NCBI GenBank assembly: GCA_018716505.1
Contig: DVJW01000046.1
Location: 1 to 48,740, forward strand
Direction: 5' to 3'
Source of the DNA: Candidatus Faecaligallichristensenella faecipullorum
GTDB lineage: Bacteria > Bacillota > Clostridia > Christensenellales > Aristaeellaceae
DNA: 48,740 nt
In this document: positions 12,567-47,373 of the stretch, piece by piece
Layout of the letters: every line of letters starts with the position of its first letter
Numbering within the stretch: position 1 is the stretch's first letter
Position numbers and translations under genes: made by a program
The notes under the pieces: model-generated
The model's database searches: none
Seen by the model: the letters and a program-made list of their open reading frames with translations, nothing else
What the model was told of the DNA's origin: nothing

Positions 12567-12606
12567 AAAAAAGGCGCCGCTTAAGGAAGAAACCCTAGGC
12601 GGCGCC
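12567..12606 (-). terminator. Rho-independent terminator of the sensory hydrogenase operon
   Basis: On the minus strand GGCGCCGC (12606-12599) pairs with GCGGCGCC (12580-12573), extended by more pairs towards a short loop, and TTTTTTG follows. It lies 13 bases past the phosphatase stop. Confidence 0.85.
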
Positions 12607-12618
12607 GTGCATGTTGGA

Positions 12619-13797
12619 TCAGTAAACATAGGTATTGACGATTTTGCCCATGGCCCGCATTTCCTGGGTCAGCTCCTCAATCAGCCGCATTTTGATGCTC
12701 AAATCCATGGGTAAATTGGGATTTTGGTGGGCCGGGTTGATGGCCTTTCCGATAAACAGGTTCAGATGGGTGCACTTTTCCAGCAGAATCCGGGCCAGCT
12801 CGGCCGCGCCGTTGTTGGCGTCCAGCCTGCGGAAATAATCGTCGCAATCCTCAGGGTTCAGCGAGCGGTACTGGCGCAGAATCTCCAACGTGCGGTTGAT
12901 GGTCAACACGCCTTCGGTCACCAGATCCACCCCGCGCATGGTGGCGGTGGGGGGAATATCCGGATCATCCGCATACAGCGAGGCGTTGATGGGCACGCCC
13001 AGCACCCGGGAAACGATATTGGCGCTGGTGCCGCCGGCCACAATTTTCAGGCCTTCCTGGCTGTACCAATCATGCACCAGCCGCTCATCGTTGGCCTTGT
13101 CCTTGGGCGGACCGGAAAAGAAGTTGACCTGGCGCTTGGGCACCACCTGGGCCACCAGGACGGTGGAATCATCCCCGGGCTTGCCCTGATACAAATTCGA
13201 AATCATCTGGGCAATGGAGGTCAGCATGCGGGGCACCGACTGTTTTTTGCGCGCGGCGTCCCGGAAAAAGGCGGCCACGTTCTCCCATTGCCAGCCCAAA
13301 TTCAGCACCGCACCCACCCCGGCATAGGGCACGCCATCGGAAAACAGCGCAAACACGTCGCCCAGCTTGACCTCAAATCGGGATTCCCGGATATTCTTGC
13401 CGGCCACCTCGCGCTCGGTGTGATCCAGCTGCATGATCTTTCCATCCCGGATCATGACGCACTCGGGGCCATCGAATTCCACCAGATAGGCCCGGCCATC
13501 GTCGAAAACCTGCAAAATGCTGAAGGTGGAGTAGGCCACCTGCCGCACCTTGCAGATGGGCAAGGTGGCGGCGATGGTCTCCACCACCTCTTCGATGGTG
13601 GAGCCCTCCTTCATCATGGTGATGATGATCTTGCTGGTCAAGGTGGCCAGTATATTGGCCTTGACCCCGCTGCCCAAACCATCGGAGAGCACGAAAATCG
13701 AGGATTCGTCGGTGCGGACAATTTCAACCTTATCGCCGCACAATTCCTCGCCCACATGATTCAGGCTGATGTAATCCGCGTCGATATAGAATGTCAC
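12619..13797 (-). CDS. PP2C/SpoIIE-type serine phosphatase of the hydrogenase operon (HfsC-like)
   Basis: The first ~215 residues form a PP2C-type phosphatase domain with the metal-binding aspartates in 'FVLSDGLGSGVKANILA', 'VFALFSDGVPYAG' and 'GKPGDDSTVLVAQ'. The last ~170 residues ('VNFFSGPPKDKANDERLVHD' onward) are an extension typical of phosphatases next to PAS-containing hydrogenases, of unknown role. The gene overlaps the upstream sensor gene by four bases (ATGA), so the two are translated together. The same order of [2Fe-2S] protein, PAS-hydrogenase and phosphatase occurs in the hfs cluster of Thermoanaerobacterium. It likely turns a hydrogen or redox signal into dephosphorylation of a target protein; the target is not in the window. 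Confidence 0.85.
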   Translation of the reverse strand: MTFYIDADYISLNHVGEELCGDKVEIVRTDESSIFVLSDGLGSGVKANILATLTSKIIITMMKEGSTIEEVVETIAATLPICKVRQVAYSTFSILQVFDDGRAYLVEFDGPECVMIRDGKIMQLDHTEREVAGKNIRESRFEVKLGDVFALFSDGVPYAGVGAVLNLGWQWENVAAFFRDAARKKQSVPRMLTSIAQMISNLYQGKPGDDSTVLVAQVVPKRQVNFFSGPPKDKANDERLVHDWYSQEGLKIVAGGTSANIVSRVLGVPINASLYADDPDIPPTATMRGVDLVTEGVLTINRTLEILRQYRSLNPEDCDDYFRRLDANNGAAELARILLEKCTHLNLFIGKAINPAHQNPNLPMDLSIKMRLIEELTQEMRAMGKIVNTYVY

Positions 13798-15509
13798 TTT
13801 TTCCCCTCCCCGTCGTTGATAATCATATTTTTCAGCCGGGTAAGGGTGCTCTTGGTTTCCGCGGTGGTCTCGCCCAACAGACTGGCGATCTCCTGGGCCG
13901 CCACCATCTGTTTGCTGATCACCTTTTGGGCCATTTCCACGGTATCCAGCTTGAGTTTGTACTCCCTGCTCTCCCGCTCCTCTTCGGCGGTGATATCCCG
14001 GAGGATGGCCATGACCGCGCGCTGGCTGGGGATATACACCAAGGTCATGCTGGCGGTCATGTTATAGGCCGGATAGCTGACCTTCTTGTCGCGAATGGTC
14101 TCGTAATTGTTCAGCACGGTCTGGAAATCGTCGGCCTCAATGAGTTCAAAGATGTAATGGTTGAGGGCCTCGATCCGGCTCATGCCAAACACCTGGCTGG
14201 CGGCCTTGTTCATCTCCTTGATCTTGAGCTCTTCATCCACCAGGAGGATCAGGTTGGGGGTGTTTTCCATCACCACATTGGAGAAGGACTGGGCCGACTG
14301 GAACATATAGGGCATGCACATGGAGGGATCGGCCTTGCCCTGATACACCGCGATGGCCTTGGCCCGGCAGGAGGGATAGCCGCAGGATCCGCAGTTGAGC
14401 TCGTCCATCTTGCACTCCTTGCCCATGCTCCTGAGGATCGAGCGAATGGTCTCGGCGTCGGGTATGGCGTCCTTCTTGGCGCGGTTGACAAACTGTTTGA
14501 ACATGGGCACCTTGTCGGAAATCTCCGGTACCTTGACCTGGGCGCCATCGGCCAGCGCCTGAACCGCCAGCTGGCCTTTGAACCGCTCGTGTTTGACATT
14601 GCCGGTCATGGGGCCGCCCATGCAGGCGCCTTCGCACATATTCATCTCGATAAAGCAGTCGTGCAGCTGGCCCGCCTCCAGGGCCTGCAGCAGTTCCTCG
14701 CAGGATTGGGCGCCCTCCACATGCAGCATATGATACTTGGGATTGATGCCCCGAAGCCTTACGTTTTCGAGGATGCCCGCGGCCGTGGGATACATGCGCG
14801 CCATGCCGGGCTGAACGCCGTCAAAGGGCGACTCTTCCAGGTGATCCACATCGATTTTGGCCTCTTTCAGCCATCCGATGATATCCGCAAAGGTCAATAC
14901 CGCGTTTACGGCGTCCAGATGGCGCACATCCTCGGCCTCTTCCATCTTGGCGATGCACGGTCCGATGAACACCACCTTTACCTCGGGCCCCAGCTCCTTT
15001 TTGATGGCGCGCGCATGGGCCACCATAGGCGAAATCACCGGGGCCATGGCGTCCACCAGGGTGGGATGATATTTTTCAATCAAATCATTGACCGAGGGGC
15101 AGCAGGTGGTGATGATATTATCCATCTTTCCATCCGCTGCCAACTCCACATAGGCGTCGCTCACCCGAGCCGCGCCGTCCGCGGTCTCCCGCGCCTGATA
15201 AAAGCCCAGCGCCCGAAGCGCGGTGGGCAACTTCATGGGCTGATGGGAAAACAGGCTGCCCGGGAAGGAAGGCGCCACCGAGGCCACGACTTTTTGGCCC
15301 TCCCGAATCATGCGGCGGACTTTATCCAGCTGATTGGCCACGGTCTTGGCCTGCTGGGGACAGTTCAGCACGCATGCGCCGCAGAAGATACACTCCTGGG
15401 GCAAAACCTCGGCCTGGTTGTCCTCGAATTTAATGGCCTTCACCGGACAGACGCGCACGCATTTATAGCAGTTTTTACAGTTCGCTTTGGTGGAAAGAAT
15501 TACGCTCAT
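13794..15509 (-). CDS. PAS-containing sensory [FeFe]-hydrogenase-like protein (HfsB/HydS-like)
   Basis: Domains in order: two [4Fe-4S] ferredoxin motifs (Cys 11, 14, 17, 21 and 40, 43, 46, 50); an H-cluster domain with 'TTCCPS' (Cys 136/137), 'GPCIAKMEEAE' (Cys 185, Lys 188) and 'MCEGACMGG' (Cys 292, 296); a further iron-sulfur segment 'NCGSCGYPSCRAKA' with Cys 398; a PAS domain (about 411-520); and a helical tail. All four H-cluster cysteines are kept. The methionines usual before the second cysteine (MPC) and two before the third are replaced by Gly and Asn, as in sensory rather than high-turnover hydrogenases. With 571 residues it fits the group C sensory type. It overlaps both neighbours by four bases, giving a three-gene translational unit. 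Confidence 0.88.
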   Translation of the reverse strand: MSVILSTKANCKNCYKCVRVCPVKAIKFEDNQAEVLPQECIFCGACVLNCPQQAKTVANQLDKVRRMIREGQKVVASVAPSFPGSLFSHQPMKLPTALRALGFYQARETADGAARVSDAYVELAADGKMDNIITTCCPSVNDLIEKYHPTLVDAMAPVISPMVAHARAIKKELGPEVKVVFIGPCIAKMEEAEDVRHLDAVNAVLTFADIIGWLKEAKIDVDHLEESPFDGVQPGMARMYPTAAGILENVRLRGINPKYHMLHVEGAQSCEELLQALEAGQLHDCFIEMNMCEGACMGGPMTGNVKHERFKGQLAVQALADGAQVKVPEISDKVPMFKQFVNRAKKDAIPDAETIRSILRSMGKECKMDELNCGSCGYPSCRAKAIAVYQGKADPSMCMPYMFQSAQSFSNVVMENTPNLILLVDEELKIKEMNKAASQVFGMSRIEALNHYIFELIEADDFQTVLNNYETIRDKKVSYPAYNMTASMTLVYIPSQRAVMAILRDITAEEERESREYKLKLDTVEMAQKVISKQMVAAQEIASLLGETTAETKSTLTRLKNMIINDGEGKK

Positions 15510-15751
15510 TGCTCAATTCTCCTTAGCACTTCGTTGTTGAAAAAGTCTTCAGCCGTCTCCGGGGTGAGCGAAAAAAATTCGCCGTCCAAGGTTACGCACA
15601 CACCCTCGGTGCAGCGGCCCATGCAGAACGATCCGGCCATGGTCACCTGATCCTGAAGGTTGTTATCGGTAATCAGCTGATCCAGGGTATTAATAATCTT
15701 TCGGGACCCCTTCAAATGGCAGGAGCTTCCGATACAAATGGTAATATTCAT
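15506..15751 (-). CDS. Thioredoxin-like [2Fe-2S] ferredoxin domain protein (HfsA-like)
   Basis: This 81-residue protein has a ligand pattern of the NuoE/HydC type: 'ICIGSSCHLKGS' near the N-terminus and 'SFCMGRCTEGVCV' near residue 45. It is a single compact domain that probably passes electrons to or from the sensory hydrogenase encoded next. The gene ends within the start of the hydrogenase gene (four-base overlap), so it leads the operon. AGGAA stands upstream of ATG 15751. Confidence 0.88.
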   Translation of the reverse strand: MNITICIGSSCHLKGSRKIINTLDQLITDNNLQDQVTMAGSFCMGRCTEGVCVTLDGEFFSLTPETAEDFFNNEVLRRIEQ

Positions 15752-15808: not shown

Positions 15809-15843
15809 ATGTTAATTTTCACACATTGACGGAGCTCTGTCAA
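15809..15843. promoter_or_regulatory. Operator-like sequences upstream of the hydrogenase operon
   Basis: Two overlapping elements are visible. TTGACGGAGCTCTGTCAA (15826-15843) is an 18-base palindrome with one mismatched pair. Next to it, ATGTTAATTTTCACACAT (15809-15826) partly resembles the Rex repressor site (TTGTTAA-N4-TTAACAA), with one good half-site. A clear -10 was not found: TATAGC at 15807-15802 on the minus strand is possible. Rex control would fit a redox-linked operon but is inference. Confidence 0.35.
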
Positions 15844-17488: not shown

Positions 17489-18949
17489 TTAGGCAGCGGG
17501 CTCTTCAGTGGCCTCGGCGGTCGCCTCGGCAGCCGGCTCCTCGGTGGCCTCGGCAGCCTGTTCTTCGGAGGCTTCGGCAGTCGCCTCAGCGGCCGGTTCC
17601 TCGGTGGTCTCAGCGGTAGCCTCAGCGTCCGCTTCCTCGCCATCCACAGTGGTCATATCCGCGTACTTGTCCAGAATAGCATCCAACGTACCGTCGGTCT
17701 TAATACGCTCCAAGGTGTCATTGATGGCGGCCAACAGCGCCGGGTCATCCGACTTTACCGCGATGGCATACTCTTCCTGGGTCAGATCCTCATCCAGCTC
17801 CAGGATTTCCACGCCTTCCACATTGGCCACAAAGCTCCTGGCAGGCAGCAAGTCGATAATCACGCAGTCCAGGCGGCCAGCAGCCAGATCCATCACCGCA
17901 TCCAGTCCCTTGTTGTAGCGGGTTACCGTCACATCTTCCAGATCATCGGTATACAGATCACCGGTGGTGCCCAACTGCACGCCGATCTTCTTGCCCGCCA
18001 AATCCTCCACCGAAGCCACGGTGGAATTCTCGCTGGGCACAATGATCACCTGGGTGGCGTTGAAGTAGGGATCCGAGAAGGTGGTGGTCTGCTTCCGCTC
18101 CTCGGTCACAGTCATGCCGGCGATGGCAATGTCAATCTTGCCGCTGGCCAACGCAGGCAAAAGCGAATCAAAATTCATGTTGCTGATTTCCAGCTCCACG
18201 CCCAGATCCTTAGCGATCTCAGCCGCGATTTCCGCGTCAATGCCCTGCACCGTGCCGTCGTCGCCCACGAACTCAAAGGGCGCGAACTCGGCATTGGTGC
18301 CCATGATCAGCGTGTCGGTAATGGTCAGCTCGCCAACCGGCTCAGTGGCTTCCTCGGTAGCCTCGGCGGTGGCCTCGGGCTCCTCGGTGGCTTCCTCAGT
18401 AGCCTCAGCGGTGGCCTCGGGCTCCTCAGTCGCTTCCTCGGTAGCCTCGGCGGTGGCCTCAGGCTCCTCAGTGGCTTCCTCGGTAGCCTCGGCGGTGGCC
18501 TCTTCCTCAGGCTCCTCGGTGGCTTCCTCGGTAGCCTCGGCAGTGGCCTCTTCCTCGGGCTCCTCGGTGGCTTCCTCAGTAGCCTCGGCAGTAGCCTCTT
18601 CCTCGGGCTCCTCGGTGGCTTCGTCAGTGGCCGCTACCTTGGCCGCGGCAGAAGCAGCTTCCTCAGTAGCCTCGGCGGTGGCCTCTTCTTCAGGCTCCTC
18701 CGTCGCTTCCTCAGTGGGCTCGGCGGTGGCTTCCTCTTCAGGCTCCTCCGTCGCTTCCTCAGTGGGCTCGGCGGTGGCTTCCTCCTCAGGCTCCTCCGTC
18801 GCTTCCTCAGTGGGCTCGGCGGTGGCTTCCTCAGTGGCCTCCGGGGTCGGGGTGGCTGCGGGCTGCTCGCCGCCCGAGCAGGACGCCAGCATAACCGCCA
18901 CCATCGTCAGCACGATCAACAGTGAAATCGATTTCTTCAGCAATTTCAT
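17489..18949 (-). CDS. Amino-acid ABC solute-binding lipoprotein with long acidic repeat linkers
   Basis: A lipoprotein signal (lipobox LASC, Cys 24) is followed by about 180 residues made almost only of E, A, T and P in near-repeats of 'EATAEATEEATEEPEE'. The binding domain starts near residue 208 ('TLIMGTNAEFAPFEFV') and has the family features 'IDAEIAAEIAKDLGVELEI' and 'SGKIDIAIAGMTVTEERKQ'. A second repeat tail of about 45 residues ends the protein. Usual family length is about 270 residues; here it is 486. The linker probably lifts the binding domain away from the membrane through the wall. One copy (codons for 'ASAAAKVAATD') is divergent. Good ribosome site AGGAGG upstream of ATG. The ligand is a polar amino acid, type unknown. 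Confidence 0.93.
   Translation of the reverse strand: MKLLKKSISLLIVLTMVAVMLASCSGGEQPAATPTPEATEEATAEPTEEATEEPEEEATAEPTEEATEEPEEEATAEPTEEATEEPEEEATAEATEEAASAAAKVAATDEATEEPEEEATAEATEEATEEPEEEATAEATEEATEEPEEEATAEATEEATEEPEATAEATEEATEEPEATAEATEEATEEPEATAEATEEATEPVGELTITDTLIMGTNAEFAPFEFVGDDGTVQGIDAEIAAEIAKDLGVELEISNMNFDSLLPALASGKIDIAIAGMTVTEERKQTTTFSDPYFNATQVIIVPSENSTVASVEDLAGKKIGVQLGTTGDLYTDDLEDVTVTRYNKGLDAVMDLAAGRLDCVIIDLLPARSFVANVEGVEILELDEDLTQEEYAIAVKSDDPALLAAINDTLERIKTDGTLDAILDKYADMTTVDGEEADAEATAETTEEPAAEATAEASEEQAAEATEEPAAEATAEATEEPAA
18340..18841 (-). repeat. Coding tandem repeat in the binding-protein linker
   Basis: Roughly 48-base units (16 codons, shortening to 13) repeat about ten times with GAG/GCC/ACC-rich sequence. 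A second, shorter block lies at 17492-17640. Unit number is likely to vary between strains by slippage. Confidence 0.8.
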
Positions 18950-21075: not shown

Positions 21076-23067
21076 TTAACCAATTTCAGCCCCCGAACCG
21101 ATGCCTTCTTCCACGGTCAAGAGCTTCAAGTTGCCCTTGTCGTCCGAGGCGCACAGCAGCATGCCTTCGGACAGTATGCCGCGCATCTTGCGGGGCTTCA
21201 AATTGGCCACCAGAATTACGGTCTTGCCCACCATTTCCTCGGGGGTATAATAGTTGGCGATGCCGCTGACCACGGTGCGGGTGGTTCCGCCCACATCCAG
21301 GGTTTCTTTCAGCAGCTTATCCGATTTGGGCACCCGCTCGCAGGCCACCACTTTGGCGGTGAGCAGCTGCACCTTATCGAAATCCTCAATGCCGATCAGG
21401 CTCACGCCCGCCTTTTCCTCTTCATCCTCCGGCGCCTTTGCGGGCTCGGCTTTTTTGGGCGCGGGTTCAGCCTTGGGCTCGGAACCAGCGGGCTTCTCCT
21501 CCTCGGCCAGGGCGGCCAGCTCCTTGCTCACGTCAATGCGCGGGAACAGGGCCTGGCCCTTCTGCACTTTGGTGCCGGCCTTCAGCGCCCCAAAATGTTG
21601 AACGCTGTCCCAGGTCTTGAGCGCAGCATCGGTCACGCCAATCTGCTCAAAGATGCGCTCCGGCGTCTTGGGCATAAAGGGCGCGATCAGCACGGCCACC
21701 GCGCGCACGCACTCGGCCAGATAATACATAACCGTCTTGAGCCTGGGCTTGCCCTCCTCGCTCCGGCCCAGGATCCAGGGCTGGGTCTGATCGATATAGC
21801 GGTTGCAATCGCCCACCAGCTTCCAGATCTCGGAAAGCGCCAGCGAGAACTGCAGTCCGTCCATATTCTTTTCCACCAGCGCAGGCAGGGCCTCAAACCG
21901 GTTGCGCAGCGCGTCCTCCAGCTCGGTGATCTGATCGGGCTCAGGCACTTCGCCGCCAAAATACTTTTCAATCATGGCCACGGTGCGGCTCACCAGATTG
22001 CCCAGATCGTTGGCCAAATCCGCATTCATGCGGGTGAGCATGGCCTCATTGGTATAGTTGCCGTCCGCGCCGAAGGGCATCTCGCGCATCAAATAGTACC
22101 TGAGCGCATCGCATCCATAGCGGGCCACGATGGGCTGGGGATAGACGATATTGCCCTTGGACTTGCTCATCTTGTCATTGCCGAACAAAAGCCAGCCATG
22201 GCCGAACACCTGCTTGGGCAGCGGCAGGCCCAGGGCATGCAGCATGATGGGCCAATAGATGGTATGGAAGCGCACGATCTCCTTGCCCACCAGGTGCACA
22301 TCCGCCGGCCAGTACTTCTTAAACAGCTCGTCATGATCCGTTCCATAGCCCAGGGCGGTGATGTAGTTGGACAGCGCGTCGATCCACACATAGACCACAT
22401 GCTTGGGGTCAAAGGTCACCGGCACGCCCCACTTAAACGAGGTGCGCGAGACGCACAGATCCTGAAGCCCGGGGCGCAGGAAGTTATTGAGCATCTCGTT
22501 GGCCCGGGCCGGAGGCTGGATGAAATCGGGATGGGTCTCGATGTAATCGATCAGCCAATCCTGATATTTGCTCATGCGGAAGAAGTAGCTCTCCTCCCGG
22601 GTGGGCTCCACCGGACGGCCGCAGTCCGGGCAGCATCCGTCCTTGAGTTGGCTGGGCGTCCAGAAGGATTCGCAGGGCGTGCAATACAGGCCTTCATACT
22701 CGCTCTTATAGATATCGCCCTGGTCATAAAACTGCTTGAAGATCTTTTGGACGATCTTCTCATGGCGCTCATCCGTGGTGCGGATAAAATCGTCGTACTC
22801 GATATCCATCAGCTTCCACAGCTCTTTGGTGCGCGCCACAATCTCATCCACAAACTGCTTGGGCGTGACCCCGGCCTCGGCGGCCTTGCGCTCGATCTTC
22901 TGGCCATGCTCATCGGTGCCGGTGAGAAAATAGGTATCGTATCCGGTGAGCTTTTTGAAGCGCGCCATGGTGTCCGCGGCCACGGTGCAATAGGTGTGGC
23001 CAATGTGCATGTTCCCGCTGGGATAGTAGATGGGCGTGGTAATATAAAACTTCTTGCGCTCCTCCAT
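21076..23067 (-). CDS. metG: Methionyl-tRNA synthetase
   Basis: This 663-residue enzyme charges tRNA-Met. The class I motifs are 'GNMHIGHTYC' (HIGH) near residue 20 and 'DKMSKSKGNIV' (KMSKS) near residue 310. A zinc knuckle is formed by 'YCTPCESFW' and 'CCPDCGRP'. The anticodon-binding helical domain follows, then an E/K/P/A-rich linker (about 530-560) and a C-terminal tRNA-binding domain of the Trbp111 type ('VQLLTAKVVACERVPKSDKL' to 'RKMRGILSEGMLLCASDD'). Full length for the two-domain bacterial form. It is preceded by a Met T-box riboswitch that controls read-through. Confidence 0.97.
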   Translation of the reverse strand: MEERKKFYITTPIYYPSGNMHIGHTYCTVAADTMARFKKLTGYDTYFLTGTDEHGQKIERKAAEAGVTPKQFVDEIVARTKELWKLMDIEYDDFIRTTDERHEKIVQKIFKQFYDQGDIYKSEYEGLYCTPCESFWTPSQLKDGCCPDCGRPVEPTREESYFFRMSKYQDWLIDYIETHPDFIQPPARANEMLNNFLRPGLQDLCVSRTSFKWGVPVTFDPKHVVYVWIDALSNYITALGYGTDHDELFKKYWPADVHLVGKEIVRFHTIYWPIMLHALGLPLPKQVFGHGWLLFGNDKMSKSKGNIVYPQPIVARYGCDALRYYLMREMPFGADGNYTNEAMLTRMNADLANDLGNLVSRTVAMIEKYFGGEVPEPDQITELEDALRNRFEALPALVEKNMDGLQFSLALSEIWKLVGDCNRYIDQTQPWILGRSEEGKPRLKTVMYYLAECVRAVAVLIAPFMPKTPERIFEQIGVTDAALKTWDSVQHFGALKAGTKVQKGQALFPRIDVSKELAALAEEEKPAGSEPKAEPAPKKAEPAKAPEDEEEKAGVSLIGIEDFDKVQLLTAKVVACERVPKSDKLLKETLDVGGTTRTVVSGIANYYTPEEMVGKTVILVANLKPRKMRGILSEGMLLCASDDKGNLKLLTVEEGIGSGAEIG

Positions 23068-23127: not shown

Positions 23128-23385
23128 TAAAACAAAAACCGCCCCTCACAAAACTGCGAGGGGCGGATAAAACCGCGGTACCACCCTGCTTCTTCCGGAC
23201 AAAAAATCCGAAACTCAGGCCGACTTTCATCGGCTGCGCCGGTAACGGGGCCATCCGTCCGGAGCTAACGCGCGCTCACCCCGGAAACTCAGGAGCCATG
23301 TTCACCTTATGAATCACTGCCGGTTTTCACCTAACCCGGCTCTCTTTGAGCGTTCAATCCGGCTACTCTTTCCTTCATCGCTATG
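23128..23385 (-). promoter_or_regulatory. T-box riboswitch upstream of metG
   Basis: The minus-strand transcript carries the T-box sequence AGGGTGGTACCGCGG (23187-23173), which pairs with the acceptor end of uncharged tRNA. Stem I has the usual 'AGAGAGCCGG' segment, and a putative specifier ATG at 23299-23297 (context GAACATGGCTCCTGAG), matching Met and metG. The terminator CCGCCCCTC/GAGGGGCGG (23166-23139) with TTTTTGTTTT ends the leader; the T-box bases lie just before it and can form the antiterminator. High uncharged tRNA-Met should switch metG on. The 5' limit is approximate. Confidence 0.93.
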
Positions 23386-23392
23386 TATTGGT

Positions 23393-45939: not shown

Positions 45940-47373
45940 TCAGCCATCCAGTTCGACCAGACAGTATTCGACATTGCCGGCCCAGTCTGCGCACATCGAC
46001 CAGCGCCGATACGCATCCAGCGACTTCTCCGGATCATACAGCACGATGGCGTGCTCCTCGGAATCGATTTCCACGTTGAAGTACTCGCTCAGCTGATCCT
46101 GCCCGCCCGTCTCACGCACCGGCGTCTCGATGAGTGCGCTCTCCAGATATTCTACTGCGCCCATTTCGTCCGTCGCGCTCAACGCATGCGCCTCGACGTA
46201 CGCATTGCGTTCCGCTTCGCCGCCCTGTTCGCCTGCGCTCAGGCACACCTTCAGAGATGACATCAGCTCCGCGACCGACGGCTGCTCCCCGGCAAACCAC
46301 ACATACACGCCAAAGCGATATGTGCCTTCCTCGCCGGGCTCGATGCGCACTTCAAACCGCACGTGCTCCAGCTGCACTGCCGTGAGTTCCACCTCCGGCA
46401 GATTCTCCACCGCTTCCGGCTTCGCTGCTTCGGGATCCCTCAACGCCCAGTCCACGTACTTGGCTACGTTTCCGCTCAGCAGTTCATCGATGCGCAGCAG
46501 AACGCCGGCTTCGCCGTTTCGCATCTCGATCCATTGAATTTGCTTTTCCTGCCATAGCCGCGCCAGCTGCAATCCGGACAACATCAGACTGTGCTGCGCA
46601 TAGCTACCATTATCTTCAGGCTGCGCAATGACCAACAGCATATTCCCATCTGCCCAGTCTTTATTATTCAGCACGGCCAGCAGCTCATATTCATCCAATT
46701 CGTAATCCTCATCATAGAGGATACCCAGTTCTTTCAGCCCGGCACCTGTTCCCAGATAATCATCATAGAGCACATTTCCCTGATACTCTACGAAAGGCAA
46801 ATCAAAATTCGGCTGAGGCTTGGGACTCGCCGTTGGGCTCGCCGTCGCCGTCGGACTCACCGTCGCTGTCGGACTCACCGTCGCTGTCGGACTCACCGTC
46901 GCCGTTGGGCTCACCGTAGGTGTCGGGCTCACCGTCGCCGTCGGGCTCGCCGTTGCCGTCGGGCTTATCGTGGGCGTTGGGTTCACCGTGGGTGTCGGAT
47001 TCACTTGCTCGCGTACAAAACTCAGTGTCAATGTCTTGCCCTCGTACACGCTGCCGATGATGACCATATTCCCTGATATGCTCACGCCACTGCTGGGCTG
47101 CGCCTCCACCTGACTGAATTGGTATCCCGCATCCGGTACGGCCTCCAGCGCAAAAGAGGATAGGCGATCCACGGTAAACTCGCGCGTACCCGTATAAACC
47201 GTCCCATCTATGCGCACCGCCCCGCCCGCGCCGCACACTACCGTGATTATATGTTCCTCCGGCAGCGTCGTGCTGATTTGCGTGGCACGATTTTCCGCCG
47301 CCAACCCGGCCGCAGGCAGGAGCGCGAATAGCGCGGCCAGCATCCATATAAGGTATCTTTTCAACTGCGCCAT
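45940..47373 (-). CDS. Secreted repeat-linker surface protein of unknown function
   Basis: About 477 residues: a signal peptide ('LIWMLAALFALLPAAGLAAE'), a small beta domain (about 30-125) resembling a bacterial repeat ('GAGGAVRIDGTVYTGTREFT'), a P/T/S linker of about 68 residues ('SPTATVSPTATVSPTATV'), and a C-terminal domain of about 280 residues rich in E, W and Y with no recognised family. No LPXTG or membrane anchor is seen. ATG 47373 lies almost on GGGAGG; TTG 47364, nine bases on, has better spacing ('MKRYLIWML' if used). It is the last gene of the minus-strand secreted cluster. Confidence 0.75.
   Translation of the reverse strand: MAQLKRYLIWMLAALFALLPAAGLAAENRATQISTTLPEEHIITVVCGAGGAVRIDGTVYTGTREFTVDRLSSFALEAVPDAGYQFSQVEAQPSSGVSISGNMVIIGSVYEGKTLTLSFVREQVNPTPTVNPTPTISPTATASPTATVSPTPTVSPTATVSPTATVSPTATVSPTATASPTASPKPQPNFDLPFVEYQGNVLYDDYLGTGAGLKELGILYDEDYELDEYELLAVLNNKDWADGNMLLVIAQPEDNGSYAQHSLMLSGLQLARLWQEKQIQWIEMRNGEAGVLLRIDELLSGNVAKYVDWALRDPEAAKPEAVENLPEVELTAVQLEHVRFEVRIEPGEEGTYRFGVYVWFAGEQPSVAELMSSLKVCLSAGEQGGEAERNAYVEAHALSATDEMGAVEYLESALIETPVRETGGQDQLSEYFNVEIDSEEHAIVLYDPEKSLDAYRRWSMCADWAGNVEYCLVELDG
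46820..46995 (-). repeat. Tandem repeat encoding the SPTATV linker
   Basis: Units of 18 bases built on GTCGGACTCACCGTCGCT repeat about eight to ten times with small changes, all in frame. Confidence 0.8.

Follow-up and report, generated by a model that had tools for sequence, protein, structure and literature searches.

In a 48,740-nucleotide stretch of DNA from Candidatus Faecaligallichristensenella faecipullorum (contig DVJW01000046.1; the whole stretch is called the window here), three overlapping genes on the minus strand probably make up one transcription unit, that of a sensory [FeFe] hydrogenase of the phosphatase-linked kind (group C3 type), and the explanation that we favor with some confidence is that this hydrogenase senses H2 or redox state and controls the phosphatase encoded next to it through its C-terminal tail. 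The genes encode Fd81, a thioredoxin-like [2Fe-2S] protein of 81 amino acids (15506..15751; PF01257 (2Fe-2S_thioredx), 28.7 bits against a cut-off of 24.8), HydS, a sensory-type [FeFe] hydrogenase of 571 amino acids with a PAS domain (13794..15509), which is identified by its Pfam domains and by trees, and an HfsC-like SpoIIE/PP2C phosphatase of 392 amino acids with a GTG start (12619..13797; PF07228 (SpoIIE), 57.6 bits). The Pfam matches of HydS above cut-off are Fe_hyd_lg_C, FeS (PF04060), Fer4, and PAS. A preliminary description of this DNA had read the products as a [2Fe-2S] protein, a PAS hydrogenase and a PP2C phosphatase whose genes overlap by four bases at both joints, and both statements proved accurate: all three proteins have Pfam matches above cut-off, and the joints are exactly ATGA (15506-15509) and GTGA (13794-13797) on the minus strand, each internal start being preceded by a purine-rich sequence that resembles a ribosome-binding site. 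Such an arrangement goes beyond chance, as 79 of 80 related loci show the same phosphatase after the same hydrogenase.

Conservation, class and relatives of the module

Relatives of HydS were collected by scanning one genome per species with patterns of the HydS tail, which gave at least 583 confirmed relatives, and the best 80 were kept as named loci; the nearest named matches, at 57% identity, suggest that the source is probably a Christensenellales-type member of the Clostridia; because the tail patterns selected them, tail conservation and likeness to the query, including at the residue C299 discussed below, are biased in this set. An 18-sequence HydS alignment, made of the window's protein and 17 of the 24 relatives with a match, is free of that tail-selection bias; it omits L022/L049 (for no particular reason), L029/L056 (in-frame TAG), the four partial matches L036-L039, and L040. 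When references were thinned at 80% identity, all 49 HfsC but 47 of the 62 HydS sequences were aligned with the window's protein. The one locus of the 80 that lacks HfsC downstream of HydS (L127) ends 118 bases past the hydrogenase gene. Among relatives a HydS match was found in 25 of the 60 genomes searched (own genome included, one match partial), and HfsC lies downstream in 19 of 19 HydS-bearing relative loci (20 loci fetched). No fusion of HydS and HfsC was seen in any of the 80 loci.

The final tree of the H-cluster domain (maximum likelihood, 66 rows, 255 columns) places all 23 HydS rows, including that of Ruminococcus albus 8, in one group (support 100/100) and the 15 group A rows in a separate group (100/99), and a topology constraining the window's HydS to group A is rejected (approximately unbiased test, p-AU 0.0012). 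It had been predicted that HydS would fall in group C and outside group A, and this is what the tree gives as far as it can tell, its named sensory anchor being the R. albus 8 HydS (L145), with no HydDB, C1 or C2 references in the tree. Both runs of the tree omit the HydA of L118 (1103 amino acids) and the final one in addition L193, which is identical to L088. Rows were labelled D according to the search that had fetched them, and this label is mixed, since L192 and L193 group with B. The features of group C3, which HydDB defines as “phosphatase-linked (putative)” (PMC5037454), are present: an H-cluster domain outside group A, a C-terminal PAS domain, and a linked SpoIIE/PP2C gene that overlaps by four bases. 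The module thus fits HydDB group C3, of the hydS/hfsBC type, as far as its tree position, PAS domain and linked phosphatase gene show. As a find it is ordinary, the arrangement being already known and common in Clostridia. We also observed that 10 of the 15 group A HydA rows have Ser at the column of the H-cluster ligand C300 (TSCSP in L066).

The closest known cluster that we compared is that on plasmid pRUMAL01 of R. albus 7, annotated as rex, adhE, a phosphotransferase, two 2Fe-2S genes, HydS, a SpoIIE phosphatase, and a gene in the hydrogenase position. It has the same order of 2Fe-2S protein, HydS and phosphatase as the window, and its phosphatase is 43% identical over 97%, whereas the window has no adjoining rex, adhE, kinase-like gene or hydrogenase. 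As described, the hfsABCD operon of Thermoanaerobacterium shares the PAS hydrogenase and the serine phosphatase with the window (PMC5707799, PMC11837493) and has HfsA and the ferredoxin-linked hydrogenase HfsD in addition. The sensory hydrogenases TmHydS and TamHydS are described with the same N-terminal clusters, methionine-replaced H-cluster domain and C-terminal Fe-S motif (PMC8163306, PMC10055695); TmHydS has a PAS domain, as here, whereas TamHydS is described without one (PMC8163306), and C299, missing in both by description, is kept in the window's HydS.

The neighborhood varies more than the HydS-HfsC pair does. In 72 of the 80 loci an Fd81 homologue precedes HydS on the strand of the module; it is missing despite sufficient room in six and there is no room in two, and among those six it stands between two HydS genes in L126 and L136 and on the other strand in L122. 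The loci L126 and L136 (Clostridium brassicae and C. ganghwense) carry a tandem HydS pair with a single phosphatase downstream. A group B-type hydrogenase follows within 3 kb on the same strand in 51 loci (absent with room in 21, three of which have one elsewhere in the locus; no room in eight), AdhE precedes the module in 20 (44 without, 16 with no room), and a gene for a 249-amino-acid APH/RIO-type kinase-like protein precedes it in 26 (42 without, 12 with no room). We call the neighboring hydrogenase group B because TIGR04105, whose cut-off is 450, gives the R. albus 8 copy 579.8 bits and the window genome's own copy 570.5 bits; the published annotation assigns the R. albus 7 enzyme to group A1 (PMC6776011), and the classification schemes therefore disagree on the R. 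albus-type hydrogenase.

In the window the module stands alone: neither a hydrogenase nor AdhE nor the kinase-like gene adjoins it. As this genome is 84% complete, gene absences in it are provisional. The genome's group B-type hydrogenase is on another contig beside an Fd81-like gene of its own (38% identical to Fd81), and a one-piece AdhE was not found in it, alcohol dehydrogenase and aldehyde dehydrogenase homologues being separate. A search for a kinase in parallel with the phosphatase, as the preliminary description had proposed, found none in this incomplete genome; the R. albus-type APH/RIO kinase-like gene gave short weak matches only, the best with E 0.0012 over 36 residues. The earlier interpretation is thus supported in part: its class for the module agrees with the tree as far as tested, with group A rejected, and a parallel kinase was not found in the genome as assembled.

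Sensor, tail and phosphatase domains

The H-cluster domain of HydS (residues 72-300; 14610..15296, minus strand; PF02906) retains the whole ligand set: C137, C185, C292 and C296, which we take to be the equivalents of CpI C300, C355, C499 and C503, are all Cys here and in 83 of 83 aligned HydS, as the preliminary description had stated for the window. Residues of HydS were numbered to CpI by motif, the positions C299, M353 and M497 following PMC8163306 and PMC10055695. The replacement of two methionines near the active site was likewise correctly recognized: the position of M353 is G183 here (Gly in 80 of 83 HydS) and that of M497 is N290 (48 of the 83 have Ser, 34 Asn and one His). The proton-relay residue C299, on which the preliminary description is silent, is kept as C136, and it is Cys in 69 of the 83 HydS and in 14 of the 18 that were not chosen by the tail motif, frequencies biased upward in both samples because these are relatives of a Cys-bearing query. 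Replacement of C299, which has served to mark sensory HydS, is thus not seen here, and the residue is not strictly defining; Cys is reported at C299 in 17% of the sensory enzymes in HydDB (PMC10055695). Judged from these sequences, an average difference from the Thermotoga maritima HydS at this position seems to set the phosphatase-linked clade apart.

The other parts of HydS, all on the minus strand, are of uneven conservation. Two 4Fe-4S motifs occupy the N-terminus (residues 8-54; 15348..15488; Fer4_10, Fer4), and all eight of their cysteines are invariant in the 18- and 48-sequence HydS alignments, as are the cysteines of an extra four-Cys Fe-S motif (residues 370-400; 14310..14402; PF04060, 44.5 bits) between the H-cluster domain and the PAS domain (residues 413-505; 13995..14273; PF00989, 28.2 bits, and TIGR00229, 36 bits, both over cut-off). 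At the C-terminus a helical hairpin (residues 507-569; 13803..13991) is predicted by AlphaFold2, with helices at 507-541 and 546-569. Its section 530-560 is almost invariant (KQM..AQEIASLLGETTAETK): in the 18-sequence alignment 18 of its 31 residues (58%) are invariant, compared with 36% in the FeS motif, 32% in the N-terminal clusters, 12% in the H-cluster domain and 3% in the PAS domain. There is no His from residue 507 to the C-terminus, and the tail is therefore not the acceptor site of a histidine kinase.

HfsC begins with the PP2C catalytic domain (residues 1-225; 13123..13797, minus strand), whose acidic residues D22, D39, D154, D209 and D210 are invariant in 50 sequences and are presumably the metal-binding residues of the PP2C family. 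The AlphaFold2 model of HfsC has a mean predicted local distance difference test score (pLDDT) of 89.3, and the fold agrees with the assignment, the matches including 3pu9 (Z 25.0, root-mean-square deviation (rmsd) 2.8, 218 aligned) and SpoIIE 5ucg (Z 24.1). Residues 226-392 (12622..13122, minus strand) make up an unnamed C-terminal domain, the C-domain, of about 165 residues with the near-invariant motif GPP..GGT..PP..G.DL.TEGV.T..NPAHQNP. It is mostly predicted with confidence by AlphaFold2, blocks at 351-370 scoring near 60. Structural matches from Foldseek and VIA-align mostly span residues 1-220, so the C-domain is barely covered by them; one, the RsbU-RsbW protein 3ke6, spans HfsC 2-384 (Z 22.1, rmsd 4.8, 270 aligned).

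The C-domain of the window's HfsC matches no Pfam family, and across 21 members seven Pfam families match one member each, with a best E of 0.0088. A sugar isomerase (SIS) fold, considered because a profile search weakly matched 3trj (E 0.033), is unsupported: profile-profile comparison with eight SIS proteins gave a probability of 0.2%, in the range of six control families (0.1-1.0%). Searched against 40 genomes, a C-domain profile found one place each in 17, namely in all 16 HydS-bearing genomes, the window's own among them, and in one of the 24 others (Fisher p 3e-10, a value that ignores shared ancestry). In that single genome without HydS (G006) the match begins 45 bases from a contig edge. 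From these counts the C-domain is tied to the HydS module, as far as searched.

Correlations over the 45 loci that have all three genes also bear on the pairing of HydS with HfsC. For the H-cluster, PAS and coil parts of HydS they reach 0.92-0.96 with HfsC, compared with 0.81-0.89 with the neighboring hydrogenase. Given that hydrogenase, which is the only control for shared ancestry in these figures, the partial correlation of HydS with HfsC is 0.75-0.85 for the H-cluster, PAS and coil parts; the FeS motif reaches 0.59-0.66 and the N-terminal ferredoxin part 0.44-0.48.

A sensory hydrogenase proposed to act on a phosphatase, and rival explanations

A path from H2 or redox state to dephosphorylation is a published hypothesis for this class (PMC5037454, PMC6776011), and we regard the following form of it as probable. 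The H-cluster of HydS, a poor catalyst through its changed surroundings, would read either H2 or how reduced the ferredoxin pool is, with electrons passing by way of both N-terminal 4Fe-4S clusters and perhaps the 2Fe-2S partner as well. The state would be relayed to the PAS domain and on to the helical tail, which is almost invariant and would act in trans on HfsC. In the phosphatases RsbP and RsbU, a PAS or other sensor and a helical linker are joined to a SpoIIE-type PP2C domain, as described in PMC12143880, and RsbT activates RsbU in that its linkers form a coiled coil that dimerizes the phosphatase domains, a mode that the authors also suggest for the PAS-bearing RsbP (PMC12143880). Here sensor and phosphatase are in contrast separate proteins, and the phosphatase has the extra C-domain. 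Because HfsC begins with the PP2C domain and has no linker of its own, and because the PAS domain and the tail are on HydS, the tail may do in trans what the linker does in cis, so that HydS and HfsC would divide between two genes what PAS-coil-PP2C phosphatases such as RsbP combine in one. The phosphatase HfsC would then dephosphorylate a Ser/Thr phosphoprotein, perhaps chosen by the C-domain, and thereby adjust the output of H2 and ethanol, perhaps including that of the group B hydrogenase elsewhere in the genome. We propose only tentatively that the trans-switching pair, with the C-domain as a dedicated receptor for the target or a small ligand, represents a branch of H2 sensing that works by Ser/Thr phosphorylation and lies outside sigma-factor partner switching.

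Published work on relatives also speaks for this explanation. The hydS cluster of R. albus shows a 111-fold decrease in co-culture with an H2 consumer (PMC6776011), and in Thermoanaerobacterium saccharolyticum deletion of hfsA or hfsB raised ethanol and adhE expression, while deletion of hfsC or hfsD diverted flux to lactate (PMC5707799). Several points weigh against it. When hfsABCD was deleted in T. thermosaccharolyticum, hfsD alone restored a high ethanol yield (PMC11837493), so that HfsC seems not to be needed for that phenotype. A related group D sensor is described as having a C-terminal 4Fe-4S cluster without a response to H2 (PMC13104023), and the published passages that were searched contain no direct measurement of H2 sensing for a phosphatase-linked member. 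The helices of the HydS tail are predicted at low pLDDT, and since C299 is kept here, the impaired turnover of the T. maritima HydS, which lacks this residue, may not carry over unchanged.

The retained C299 and H-cluster cysteines would also suit an ordinary catalytic hydrogenase that shares an operon with an unrelated phosphatase, the more so as enzymes of the HydS type are reported to turn over H2, if at very low activity (PMC11376134); with a PAS domain, replaced methionines, a clade apart from group A and phosphatase pairing in 79 of 80 loci, this is nevertheless very improbable. A closer competitor, although on balance doubtful, is that the input is the redox state of ferredoxin or of the cell, with the H-cluster serving as electron relay or valve and the phosphatase responding when the Fe-S chain is reduced. 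In its favor are the twelve Fe-S cysteines that are invariant in addition to those of the H-cluster (eight N-terminal, four before the PAS domain) and the gene for a 2Fe-2S partner that 72 of 80 loci have upstream, as does the description of HfsB as possibly responsive to redox potential (PMC11837493), whereas the full H-cluster ligand set, kept in 83 of 83 HydS, would be needless in a sensor of Fe-S redox state only.

As to the output, HfsC might act on a STAS anti-anti-sigma factor, as SpoIIE, RsbU and RsbP do; here the only candidate is a SpoIIAA-like protein, which would link H2 to sporulation. The one STAS protein found in the genome is encoded in an operon with SpoIIAB- and sigma-factor-like genes (spoIIAA-spoIIAB-sigF-like), and one or more STAS proteins occur in 18 of 20 HydS genomes; in the remaining two, each 90% complete, none was found, no open reading frame in the 80 loci matched SpoIIAA- or SpoIIAB-like references, although distant STAS proteins could escape such a search, and the genome has a second SpoIIE-family protein (842-codon frame) that is probably the sporulation SpoIIE. 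We consider this target unlikely, and a sigma-factor partner switch as the general target of HfsC is possible, not supported. Less likely still is that an RsbW-like ATPase beside a group D-like sensory hydrogenase supplies the opposing kinase, the two hydrogenases making a push-pull switch. Genes for DRTGG, HATPase and group D-like hydrogenase proteins at a contig end, and a second HATPase gene with hydABC-like genes on another contig, would fit such a switch; the ATPase, however, occurs in 17 of 24 HydS genomes versus 19 of 36 others (Fisher p 0.19), and as an obligate partner of HydS it is unsupported. In these counts G048 was scored as HydS-negative (a partial match of 34%, residues 16-329) and as ATPase-negative (E 1.9e-9, 34%); counting its ATPase gives 20 of 36.

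On contig C20 of the same genome (L013, 8357-10604) a second sensory-type, group D-like hydrogenase gene lies with DRTGG and RsbW-like HATPase genes at the contig end, and contig C96 (L015, 1-5446) carries DRTGG, PHP, NuoE-like, HATPase, 2Fe-2S, HydB- and HydA-like genes; together they are perhaps one split hyd operon.

Boundaries of the unit, the rest of the window, and significance

Just after the HfsC stop is a terminator-like hairpin (12567..12606, minus strand), a GC stem followed by six U that folds at -30.4 kcal/mol (z -4.47); a simple pattern scan did not list it. About 65 bases before Fd81 there is a promoter-like site (15815..15843, minus strand; TTGACA-17-GAAAAT, preceded by TG), found by consensus scan, which is weak evidence since six sites were found in the region against 2.3 expected. 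The flanking genes, for an amino-acid-type ATP-binding cassette transporter upstream and for Nudix and glycosyl-hydrolase-2-like proteins downstream, look unrelated to the module. Elsewhere in the window, a T-box leader (23156-23387, minus strand, 102.7 bits) lies just upstream of an open reading frame (21076-23067) that by eye is methionyl-tRNA synthetase-like. A family 3 solute-binding protein (17489-18949, minus strand) has its binding domain at residues 214-430 after a long Thr/Glu/Ala/Pro repeat array with a DNA period of 48 bp (about 10.7 copies, 18341-18826) and further repeats near its C-terminus (17518-17587), and a tandem repeat of an 18-bp unit in about nine copies is present at 46827-46989.

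Our search of the literature found no description of the HydS tail or of the HfsC C-domain, which is no proof that none exists, and we regard the almost invariant tail and the unnamed domain as the useful leads from this locus: they are two specific handles for finding the output target, and the stand-alone copy in the window offers a minimal system for expression. The choice of anaerobes between H2 plus acetate and ethanol, which bears on rumen methane and on biofuel strains, is probably guided in part by phosphatase-linked sensory hydrogenases.

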